A stretch of 64,000 nt of DNA from Phycisphaerales bacterium (GTDB lineage: Bacteria > Planctomycetota > Phycisphaerae > Phycisphaerales > SM1A02). This document shows positions 59,116-64,000 of this stretch, in pieces (position 1 is the stretch's first letter; every line of letters begins with the position of its first letter). A program made the position numbers and the translations under genes. Location: assembly GCA_014238125.1 (NCBI GenBank), contig JABABS010000094.1:40371-104370 (forward strand), read 5' to 3'. A model generated the notes under the pieces. The model searched no databases and was not told where the DNA came from. It saw only the letters and a program-made list of their open reading frames with translations.

Positions 59116-60735
59116 ATGTTGGTATTAGAAGTCATTGATGGACCAGATTTAGGAAGTACGTTTCCATTGCCACAGGGTGAACCGCAGCTAATTGGACGTT
59201 CTTCAGAAGCGTTGCCTCTAACAGATCCAACCGTAAGCCGAAGGCACGCAGAATTAACGCCCGATGGAGATAAATGGTTTCTCAGAGATCTTGACTCTTC
59301 AAACGGAACTTTTTTAAACGGCAGGAGACTTGTTGATCGCGTGGCACTTCGCCCAAGTGATGAGGTTGGGTGTGGTTCAACTTTATTTTTTATCTCCGAA
59401 CGTACCTCACTTCCAACCGAAACTGTTCTCTCTTCAACGAACCTTGATACCAGTGCCGAGTCCATCATCGTCACTTCTCCACACTCTTTCCAAGCAGCAA
59501 AAAATCATTTGAGAATGGTGTACCGACTCACCGCTGCTACTGCTGGCACAATCGATTCAACAGCAATTTTACAGAGACTCGTTGCGGTCGTTGCAGATGA
59601 ATTCAAACCCGATCGTGCCATCGGCGTACTGTTTAATGACGAGGGTCACATCGCAACATCTATCGAAGCAATTGACGGCCACTTGCTCGACAAAGCACAA
59701 CCTTTCTGCGAATCCCTCGTGTTACATGTTTGCCAAGAAAGACGTGGATTACTTATTGCTGACATCACCGACGATATACGTTTTTCTGGAGACACTTCTG
59801 TCAAAACATTGAGTGTCCGTGGTTGTATTTGCGTACCACTGATTGCCCACGATCAAGTGCTCGGCGCGATATTGCTCGAATCACATTCAGTTTCAAGACA
59901 TTGGACGGATGAAGAATTTCAACTTCTCACCGCCGCGACTGAACACACTGGGCTTGCAATTTTAACCGCGAACCTCGTTCGTACGCGTCTTCACCATGAA
60001 CGCCTCGCCGCGATGGGCGAAACTGTTGCATCAATCAGTCACAGTGTAAAAAATATTCTCCAAGGGCTGCGTAGCGGAGCTGGGGCAATTGAACTCGCCC
60101 TTCGCCGAGGTGATCTCGAACTTGCACGTGAAGGTTGGCCAATTCTCGCACGAAATCTAGATCGCGTGTACGCGCTCACCTTCAACATGCTTGCGTGGTC
60201 AAGAGCTGGGCATCCTGAAATTTCGCTCGTCAATTTGTCCATGGTTATCGAGGATGCAATTTCACTTGTTCGGGGCGCGGCTGAACGGAAAAAGGTTTCC
60301 ATACGCGTCGATGTTGAACAGGATATGCCGCCAATTCCAGTAGACCAAACAGCAATTTTGCAAGTACTGCTCAACATTCTCAACAACGCGGTTGAGGCCG
60401 CCCCATCCAAAACCGGCATCGTTGCAATTCTCGCTTCAATTCCCCGATCTGGAGATTTGATAAAAATTGCGATCGAAGACAATGGACCGGGAATCGAAGC
60501 GTCACAGCGAGAAGCCGTTTTCCGTGCATTTCACTCAACGAAGGGACAACGAGGTACTGGTCTTGGGCTCGCGGTTTCACGAAAAATTATCATCGAACAC
60601 CAGGGCACAATTAGTATTCTTGATGCACCGCACGGCGGAACACTTTTCAACATTTATCTACCATTAGGTCGAGAAGATGACCCTGGAGATACGAGAGGTC
60701 CAGCAACCATTGATGATCCAAATAGTTTTCTGTAG
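59116..60735 (+). CDS. FHA-GAF sensor histidine kinase
   Basis: A 539-residue cytoplasmic kinase. An FHA domain (IGRSSE...VSRRHAEL...LRDLDSSNGTFLNGRRL, residues 1-95) binds phosphothreonine. A GAF domain spans about 135-295. The HisKA-like region has ETVASISHSVKNILQGL with the phospho-acceptor His. The ATPase domain follows (LLNILNNAVEAAPSK, IAIEDNGPGIEAS, GTGLGLAVSRKIIIEHQG). There is no membrane helix, so it senses an internal signal. No response regulator is adjacent. FHA input suggests crosstalk with Ser/Thr kinases; one such gene lies about 2.5 kb downstream, but the link is inference. Confidence 0.95.
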   Translation: MLVLEVIDGPDLGSTFPLPQGEPQLIGRSSEALPLTDPTVSRRHAELTPDGDKWFLRDLDSSNGTFLNGRRLVDRVALRPSDEVGCGSTLFFISERTSLPTETVLSSTNLDTSAESIIVTSPHSFQAAKNHLRMVYRLTAATAGTIDSTAILQRLVAVVADEFKPDRAIGVLFNDEGHIATSIEAIDGHLLDKAQPFCESLVLHVCQERRGLLIADITDDIRFSGDTSVKTLSVRGCICVPLIAHDQVLGAILLESHSVSRHWTDEEFQLLTAATEHTGLAILTANLVRTRLHHERLAAMGETVASISHSVKNILQGLRSGAGAIELALRRGDLELAREGWPILARNLDRVYALTFNMLAWSRAGHPEISLVNLSMVIEDAISLVRGAAERKKVSIRVDVEQDMPPIPVDQTAILQVLLNILNNAVEAAPSKTGIVAILASIPRSGDLIKIAIEDNGPGIEASQREAVFRAFHSTKGQRGTGLGLAVSRKIIIEHQGTISILDAPHGGTLFNIYLPLGREDDPGDTRGPATIDDPNSFL

Positions 60736-62071: not shown

Positions 62072-62287
62072 ATGTCTCGACGATTGCTACTCGCAATTCT
62101 GCTTCTTGCTCTCTTCACAACCATGTGTGGGTGCAACCGAACATTATTTTCGGAAAGCAACAAGGATAAAACTCAGTTTGATTCCTATGACATGATTCGA
62201 CACGGCCCAAAGATTAACGAACAGCCAAACGAGTATGGATTACCAGAACCTGCAATTCGTAATCGTTTGGGTCGGCACCGCCGGTAG
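62072..62287 (+). CDS. Small lipoprotein (71 aa)
   Basis: A 71-residue protein with signal peptide SRRLLLAILLLALFTTMCGC; lipidation at one of the two Cys is likely. The mature part is short, polar and Asp/Asn-rich (SESNKDKTQFDSYDMIRHG), ending in a basic RNRLGRHRR. No family is recognised. The ORF track starts 20 codons upstream inside clpP2; the ATG at 62072 fits both the signal peptide and a TATTAT box 6 nt before it. Confidence 0.65.
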   Translation: MSRRLLLAILLLALFTTMCGCNRTLFSESNKDKTQFDSYDMIRHGPKINEQPNEYGLPEPAIRNRLGRHRR

Positions 62288-62288
62288 C

Positions 62289-62315
62289 AAAAAACTACCT
62301 ACGGGGTAGGTTTTT
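62289..62315 (+). terminator. Terminator after the small lipoprotein gene
   Basis: CTACC and GGTAG pair around a short loop, flanked by an A-run and followed by GTTTTTC. This is a compact rho-independent terminator for the clpP-lipoprotein region. Confidence 0.75.
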
Positions 62316-62438: not shown

Positions 62439-63098
62439 ATGACCAATGATTTTGCATGGATGCACTCAAAACGAACCCAAATAGTTTGGGGGTCGTTTTT
62501 TGTTGTCATGTCGGCAATGCTTGTTCTATTACAAGCTGGTGGGGGTGATATCCAAGGTGGCGTTCTCTTCACAAACATCTCGTCCATGAATGAGCTCCCT
62601 GAAGTTGATCCTATTTTTAACGAAGACATGCCTGTCAATACAACAAAATGGTCAAGCATTGTCATCCAACACCTAGGCGAACCCGCGGGTTCCATTAAAT
62701 CAATTCAGCGATCGCACCTCTCTGGTGGATTAAATGGTATTGGCTTCCACTTCATTATTGGAAATGGCAATGGTCTTGGCGACGGTGTCGTTCACGGTAG
62801 TGAACGTTGGGTGCATCAAACTAGAGCAGCTCGTCCAATCTCCGTTGATCCTGAAAGCTGGGACGAAAACGTCATCACAATCTGCTTAATTGGAAATGGA
62901 AACCGTCGGTCATTCACGGAAAAACAAATCCTACACCTTTCAAGACTGGTGCAACGGCTTCAGAATAAACTCTCAATCGAATCGAGCGATGTTTACTTGG
63001 CATCTGACCTTGATAATTCCTCGAATGTGGCGCCATCACCAGGTAAATTCTTCGCCGAAGCAATGTTTCGGAGCCAATTGCTTGATATCGCTCACTGA
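62439..63098 (+). CDS. N-acetylmuramoyl-L-alanine amidase-like (PGRP-fold) protein lacking zinc ligands
   Basis: A 219-residue protein with one N-terminal membrane helix (TQIVWGSFFVVMSAMLVLLQAG), so it is probably periplasmic. The amidase_2/PGRP outline is clear: WSSIVIQHLGEPAGS, then GLNGIGFHFIIGNGNGLGDGVV and a TICLIGNGNRRSFTEKQ helix. Active enzymes have a His where this reads Q (VIQHL), and a GHxDxxxxxC.PG zinc site where this reads ASDLDNSSNVAPSPG. All three expected ligands (His, His, Cys) are replaced, so it probably binds peptidoglycan without cutting it. TATACC ends 7 nt before its ATG. Confidence 0.75.
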   Translation: MTNDFAWMHSKRTQIVWGSFFVVMSAMLVLLQAGGGDIQGGVLFTNISSMNELPEVDPIFNEDMPVNTTKWSSIVIQHLGEPAGSIKSIQRSHLSGGLNGIGFHFIIGNGNGLGDGVVHGSERWVHQTRAARPISVDPESWDENVITICLIGNGNRRSFTEKQILHLSRLVQRLQNKLSIESSDVYLASDLDNSSNVAPSPGKFFAEAMFRSQLLDIAH

Positions 63099-63196
63099 TT
63101 CTAGTTGAATCAAACCCTTAAAAAGAGTACTCTTAGCGTTCATTTCTACCGCGCTGCATGAGAAACAGCACAGGCTAACACCCACACATCGATTCT

Positions 63197-64000
63197 ATGA
63201 GTACAAAACCGGCACAACCTCGAAAAATAGGTACATACAACGTTCTTGCTAAATTAGGCGAGGGTGCTGCATCCATGTTGTACGCCGTGCAAAACCCGAA
63301 AACCAAACAAGTATCTGCACTTAAACACGTTAATAAAACGGATGAAAAATCCCAACGATTTCTCGATCAAGTTGAACAAGAATATGCCATTGGTTCAAAA
63401 CTAGAACACGAATCTATTAGAAAACTAACAAAAATTATCCGTCACCTGAAAATGTTCAAAATTACTGCCGTCTCAATGATTATGGAACTCGTTGACGCAA
63501 TGACTCTCGATCAACAGTTACCAAAAAATCACGCACAAGCAGTTGAAATATTTAGCCAAATCGCCCGCGGACTCGCGCACATGCACGAACGTGGGTTTGT
63601 GCACGCTGATATCAAACCAAACAATGTATTGATTGGTGAAAACAACGCTGTAAAAATTATCGATCTTGGTCAAGCATGTGCAATTGGCACTGTGAAAAAA
63701 AGAATTCAGGGCACGCCCGGTTATATGGCTCCCGAACAAGCACACCGTGGTGAAATCACACCCAAGACAGACATCTACAATTTTGGTGCAATGATGTACT
63801 GGGTTCTTGTTGGTGAAGTCATTCCCACAGCAATGCCTCCCAAAAATTCTCAAGAGGGACTGCTCACCGGCGCTGTTGAAACCGAAAACATTGCATTGCC
63901 AGATCCTCCACATGACCGCAATCCACGTATCCACCCTCTCTTGTCCAAACAAATTATGGATTGCATACAACCACTCGAAAAAAATCGGCCAGAATCTATG
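63197..64000 (+). CDS. Ser/Thr protein kinase, truncated by the window edge
   Basis: About 268 codons of a bacterial Hanks-type kinase, translated by hand because it runs off the right edge. LGEGAASMLYAV is a divergent glycine loop, ALKHVN holds the ATP Lys, HADIKPNNVLIG is the catalytic loop (HxD, with A for R, so a non-RD kinase), and IIDLGQAC replaces DFG. The GTPGYMAPEQAHRG activation segment and DIYNFGAMMYWVLVGE helix are normal. Domains after residue 268 lie outside the window. The ATG at 63197 has no clear ribosome site. Confidence 0.9.
   Translation, partial: MSTKPAQPRKIGTYNVLAKLGEGAASMLYAVQNPKTKQVSALKHVNKTDEKSQRFLDQVEQEYAIGSKLEHESIRKLTKIIRHLKMFKITAVSMIMELVDAMTLDQQLPKNHAQAVEIFSQIARGLAHMHERGFVHADIKPNNVLIGENNAVKIIDLGQACAIGTVKKRIQGTPGYMAPEQAHRGEITPKTDIYNFGAMMYWVLVGEVIPTAMPPKNSQEGLLTGAVETENIALPDPPHDRNPRIHPLLSKQIMDCIQPLEKNRPESM

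Follow-up and report, generated by a model that had tools for sequence, protein, structure and literature searches.

Near the end of the 64,000-nucleotide stretch of Phycisphaerales DNA analysed here (the window; contig JABABS010000094.1) lies a gene for a protein of the PGRP/Amidase_2 fold, followed on the same strand by a protein kinase gene. The features are:

62295..62311 (+): terminator-like hairpin in the interval between a lipoprotein gene and the PGRP gene (consensus match only)
62439..63098 (+): membrane-anchored PGRP/Amidase_2-fold protein without zinc ligands, 219 aa (ORF, Pfam, AlphaFold, alignment)
62466..62537 (+): juxtamembrane and transmembrane (TM) segment, residues 10-33, with Arg12, Val16 and Leu31 (family alignment, identity)
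62667..62669 (+): Gln at the first zinc-ligand (His) position, codon 77 (alignment)
62745..62747 (+): Phe at the catalytic Tyr position, codon 103 (alignment; role of the Tyr from PMC8124813)
63000..63002 (+): Ala at the second zinc-ligand (His) position, codon 188 (alignment)
63036..63038 (+): Ser at the zinc-ligand Cys position, codon 200 (alignment)
63197..64000 (+): cytosolic non-RD Ser/Thr protein kinase (motifs HAD, DLG, APE), cut by the contig end (Pfam, comparison of loci)

The ORF starts with ATG and has the extent given in a preliminary description of this DNA; its product consists of the TM segment, a linker (residues 34-70) and a PGRP domain (71-213). Amidase_2 (PF01510) is the sole Pfam match (residues 69-183, 31.6 bits against a cut-off of 26), and a search of NCBIfam with the protein returned no family. 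An AlphaFold2 model built on an alignment of 41 family members has a mean pLDDT of 86.8, and about 95 over most of the domain. The top Foldseek matches of the model in the PDB are Clostridium amidases (E down to 1e-7), bumblebee PGRP-SA, amphioxus PGRP3, PGRP-LC and T7 lysozyme; a profile search gave a similar set, with PGRP-SA, PGRP-LC and PGRP-LE among the closest matches. The Pfam score and the model thus bear out the amidase/PGRP fold of the preliminary description. So too for its membrane anchor: hydropathy averages 2.07 across the 19 residues starting at residue 15, and the model has one TM helix, spanning residues 11-33.

The zinc site within the window and the class

Ligand columns were defined on 43 ligand-bearing amidases of the same subfamily, all of which have H, H and C in columns 77, 188 and 200. 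The reference state H77/Y103/H188/C200 becomes Q/F/A/S in the window protein: all four catalytic positions are changed, leaving neither the His/His/Cys ligand set of zinc amidases nor the catalytic Tyr (T7 Y46, PGRP-LB Y78). The preliminary description had read the three ligand positions as Gln, Ser and Ser or Pro, and had proposed an alignment with planctomycete proteins of this fold as a check. Made with the reference amidases, that alignment agrees that all three ligands are absent and shifts the second position by one residue, to Ala188 (the Ser is its neighbour, 189); it places the third at Ser200 instead of Pro. The stretch GIGFHFIIGNGNG, described as preserved, is indeed kept, yet it includes the site of the catalytic Tyr, which is Phe103 here. 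Of the 43 columns that are conserved in the reference amidases, 29 persist in the window protein, among them the core residues W71, F105, G108-N109-G110, R123-W124, Q127, G152 and P201-G202; the 14 changed columns include G130, H132, N142, G147 and T195 besides the four catalytic positions. With these four replaced, the window protein is predicted to be non-catalytic, a conclusion strongly supported by the alignment and backed by two known substitutions: C160S in fly PGRP-LB abolishes zinc binding, and Y46F (Tyr to Phe) in T7 lysozyme abolishes activity (PMC8124813). That catalysis survives through another metal site or mechanism is highly improbable, as it has no positive support and all three ligands and the catalytic Tyr are replaced in the window protein and both of its closest orthologs.

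An ortholog was found in 59 of 61 genomes searched (the window's own and 60 relatives), mostly as one copy per genome; the genomes compared here are mostly MAGs, as is the window genome (2.07 Mb). The closest two orthologs, from Planctomycetota bacterium NIOZ-UU92 and Phycisphaerae bacterium SI047_bin83, are 86-87% identical to the window protein, and the three share the state Q/F/(A or S)/S. All 12 members from the window's genus have lost the second His, while the first His is lost in 5/12 and the Tyr (to Phe) in 5/12; position 200 is Ser in all 12, position 132 is always Lys or Arg in place of His, and Asn142, Gly147 and Thr195 are lost too. Much of the order has lost the Cys alone, mostly to Ser, keeping Tyr103, His132 and both ligand His. 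Among 42 members of the order outside the genus (families f1-f5), Cys occurs in none, Tyr103 is kept in 83% (7/12 in the genus), and the commonest state is H/Y/H/S (20/42), in which only the Cys is lost. Homologs with the same TM anchor occur throughout the class Phycisphaerae. Most lack the Cys, and a few keep all ligands (f7, f14, f16; family codes are anonymous, and several family-level statements here rest on one or few genomes).

A first tree, made with the ligand columns left out, placed 85 Cys-less proteins in one clade, with support 99/99 in a careful subset tree. A single loss of the zinc Cys was considered and dropped, since in a tree with more TM-anchored members f7 and f14 (H/Y/H/C) and f25 (H/S/H/C) fall inside the Cys-less TM clade; these domain trees have 140 columns and are poorly resolved, and some f7, f14 and f25 members sit on long branches. 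Intact and broken sites both occur within the TM-anchored family, so that the ligands were lost inside it, probably more than once, as judged from the alignments and trees. The f16 TM-anchored proteins did not group with the clade in these trees; they have all ligands, the Arg..VW..MT membrane motif and a phosphatase neighbour, and are treated as likely orthologues. In four f16 loci (L125, L126, L128, L161) a full-ligand TM-anchored amidase gene is directly followed by a phosphatase gene; the kinase family was not found in these genomes.

The membrane segment and the neighbouring genes

Arg12, at the membrane edge, is present in 100/100 aligned TM-anchored members, with Val16 in 95 and Leu31 in 94. 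Mean identity across the order is 47% in the domain and 40% in segment 10-33, falling to 18% in the linker and 10% in the tail. This cytosolic tail has only about 10 residues and is unconserved, so a direct dock for the kinase is not obvious. In f22 (L197, L204) and f21 (L199), the membrane segment is still present in the product of the gene that precedes the kinase gene, next to a reduced periplasmic part, which the family profile scores at only about 14 bits or does not recognise; this segment thus seems to outlast the PGRP domain.

In 67 of the 85 Cys-less loci the next gene downstream, on the same strand, encodes a kinase of about 300 aa (302 aa in the sister species of the window, where the kinase is cut short), with gaps of 36-490 nt and scores of 325-476 bits; in the other 18 an adjacent kinase is absent. 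The kinase profile was seeded from loci fetched around PGRP genes, where resemblance to the window kinase, rather than a position next to the PGRP gene, decided which members were taken. Only 1 of 47 Cys-bearing amidases has a nearby kinase, a generic one scoring 98 bits. Chance neighbourhood was rejected: about 0.7 adjacent kinases would be expected in 85 loci, a rough figure that assumes 15 kinases per 1800 genes and ignores shared descent. Members of f9, f12, f14, f15 and f25 likewise precede this kinase gene. The size of the gaps does not suggest translational coupling. The kinase link next to the Cys-less family is new here: like the ligand loss running through the class, it goes beyond the preliminary description, and the literature searched, in which subscription papers are mostly outside coverage, held no description of the family or the cassette.

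The catalytic Lys, the HxD Asp and DxG are kept in 96/96 kinases, and the x of HxD is Ala, Cys, Gly or Ser, never Arg. No 19-residue stretch with a mean hydropathy of at least 1.6 was found in 95/96. Family searches with the roughly 300-aa chain matched kinase-type families only, with no PASTA repeats; the score with the NCBIfam PASTA kinase model was 122, where the cut-off is 450. The kinase family spans nearly the whole class, with matches in 138/150 genomes at the threshold used. In a search of the phylum most of it stood well apart from the other planctomycete kinases, although a few from f55 and f72 are intermediate.

A calcineurin-like metallophosphatase is the candidate third partner, with one match in each of 145/150 genomes. 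Both genes were located in 128 genomes of the class, and in 91 of these the phosphatase gene follows the kinase gene. The two are not neighbours in f1 (the window's family), f4, f5, f6 and f11, and in the window genome the phosphatase gene is unlinked to the cassette (contig C5:43943-44806). In the kinase-less f16 and f7 it follows the gene of the TM-anchored protein, and in f8, f19, f20 and others a kinase-phosphatase pair occurs with no recognisable adjoining PGRP.

Some other features of the region were noted: (i) clpP genes and a small lipoprotein gene lie upstream of the PGRP gene in the order; in the window the latter is a lipoprotein-like ORF of 71 aa from the ATG at 62072 (62072-62287), and most loci of the order have a similar small ORF ahead of the PGRP gene. 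(ii) In one f11 locus (L133 2498-4786) genes for a zinc-ribbon membrane protein and an SppA-like protease precede the PGRP gene, replacing clpP. (iii) An FHA-GAF-histidine-kinase-like gene lies upstream of the window's clpP genes, at 59116-60735. (iv) A perfect 12-bp palindrome, AAGAGTACTCTT, lies at 63123-63134 between the PGRP stop and the kinase start, and is a possible regulator site; a consensus scan found no terminator-like hairpin on the + strand between these two genes.

A candidate sensor for a kinase

We propose that a former zinc amidase has become a non-catalytic, membrane-anchored periplasmic sensor or adaptor for the non-RD kinase, often together with the calcineurin-like phosphatase, a reading to which we give an even chance. 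The PGRP domain would sense something in the periplasm, be it peptidoglycan, fragments of it or a wall protein; the signal would cross through the Arg-bearing membrane segment to the kinase, directly or by way of another membrane protein, and the phosphatase would reverse the action of the kinase. The pocket is strongly eroded in the window lineage, so the domain there may have a ligand different from the usual stem peptide. We infer the sensor role from gene order and conservation. Speaking for it are the lost catalytic residues in a kept fold, the selection described below, and the conserved membrane segment and gene order; counting against it are the 18 of 85 loci without an adjacent kinase, the kinase and phosphatase genes found elsewhere without a PGRP, and the erosion of the pocket in the genus.

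The preliminary description had suggested a peptidoglycan-binding receptor. A receptor or sensor role is indirectly supported by the invariance of the membrane segment and by the conserved kinase and phosphatase genes nearby, and peptidoglycan as the ligand is plausible for much of the order and less so for the window's genus. In its strict form, with muropeptides bound in the old active-site groove as in animal non-catalytic PGRPs, this alternative seems unlikely. The fold is the same, with PGRP-SA, PGRP-LC and PGRP-LE among the closest PDB matches, and Tyr103, His132 and both ligand His are intact in much of the order, where the Cys alone is lost. Peptidoglycan synthesis genes are also present, the window genome having two PBP transpeptidase matches and one MurG-type match, so that a wall to monitor is likely. 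Against it, the genus has Phe103 in 5/12 and Lys or Arg at 132 throughout, whereas even non-catalytic animal PGRPs are described as keeping the groove Tyr without exception (PMC8124813); moreover, little of the domain is left in f21 and f22. The once-disputed planctomycete cell wall, which had been given as a reason for interest, adds little, in view of these synthesis matches, a ligand-bearing amidase in the genome, and a report of peptidoglycan in anammox planctomycetes (PMC4432595).

That amidase is the second of two Amidase_2 proteins in the window genome (at C1), lipoprotein-like and with all ligands present. Its presence in the same genome, and the good conservation of the domain in the order, fit a structural or regulatory pseudoenzyme that binds either the wall or an active amidase, for example this paralogue, and tethers or regulates it independently of the kinase. 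We consider this improbable too: it leaves unexplained the kinase beside 67/85 members, the phosphatase, and an invariant membrane segment that outlives the domain.

For the window protein and its closest two orthologs dN/dS is 0.05-0.08, and for the other pairs of the genus 0.04-0.13 (all close pairs tested; Nei-Gojobori, with values approximate given high dS). By part, the three give 0.03-0.06 for the N-terminal part and 0.06-0.08 for the domain; the N-terminal part is at least as constrained as the domain. Such purifying selection, with the same catalytic state in two sister species, speaks against a chance or pseudogene state, and decay of the gene is unlikely given these ratios and the AlphaFold model. 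The progressive loss of ligands, and the shrunken domain of some families, could instead mark a relic that inherited its gene order and is slowly decaying without a role. This we regard as very improbable in view of the low dN/dS in every close pair, the invariance of Arg12, and the retention of the gene across the order with few exceptions, even by small 2-Mb genomes.

Comparison with known systems

In animal non-catalytic PGRPs the zinc Cys is replaced, usually by Ser. These proteins (PGRP-SA, PGRP-LC, PGRP-LE, human PGLYRPs) have the fold and the lost zinc site in common with the window protein, which likewise has Ser in place of the Cys (S200) but Phe in place of the groove Tyr; PGRP-LC is also a transmembrane receptor (title of PDB 1z6i). 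The window lineage differs from them in lacking both His and the Tyr as well, in its short cytosolic tail, and in having a bacterial Ser/Thr kinase gene as the partner. The nearest relatives found are planctomycete amidases, in trees that included no animal sequences, and the likeness to animal PGRPs therefore looks convergent. More tentatively than the sensor role itself, we suggest a bacterial, independently evolved counterpart of the animal PGRP receptors: a class-wide cassette in which a pseudo-amidase receives a signal from the cell wall and controls both a kinase and the phosphatase that opposes it, catalysis having probably been lost repeatedly inside a family that still holds members with a complete zinc site. 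If this is right, a cell-wall enzyme became part of a bacterial signalling system, in parallel to animal innate immunity, and the cassette offers an entry point for studying wall monitoring in planctomycetes of the class Phycisphaerae. The cassette is simple and widespread, and with the site intact in some lineages and the domain almost lost in others, the transition would be traceable in living species.

The Amidase_2 N-acetylmuramoyl-L-alanine amidases (T7 lysozyme, AmpD, Clostridium LysC) have the same fold, detected by Pfam Amidase_2 above its cut-off. These amidases, of which the planctomycete ones carry an RW..Q..GAH motif, have the NG, RW..Q and PG motifs in common with the window protein, which differs in lacking the zinc ligands and the catalytic Tyr and in having a TM anchor with a conserved Arg. 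With the PASTA Ser/Thr kinases (PrkC, PknB, Stk) the common idea is a Hanks-type kinase that is informed, from outside, of the cell wall; muropeptides are bound by the ectodomain of PknB (PMC3145798). Here, in contrast, sensor and kinase would be separate proteins, and the kinase is non-RD, with no PASTA repeats and no clear TM segment. In a sister species (L034 6682-8706, - strand) the cassette has a second Ser/Thr kinase gene in convergent orientation beside it, whose product combines a hydrophobic segment with a long C-terminal part.
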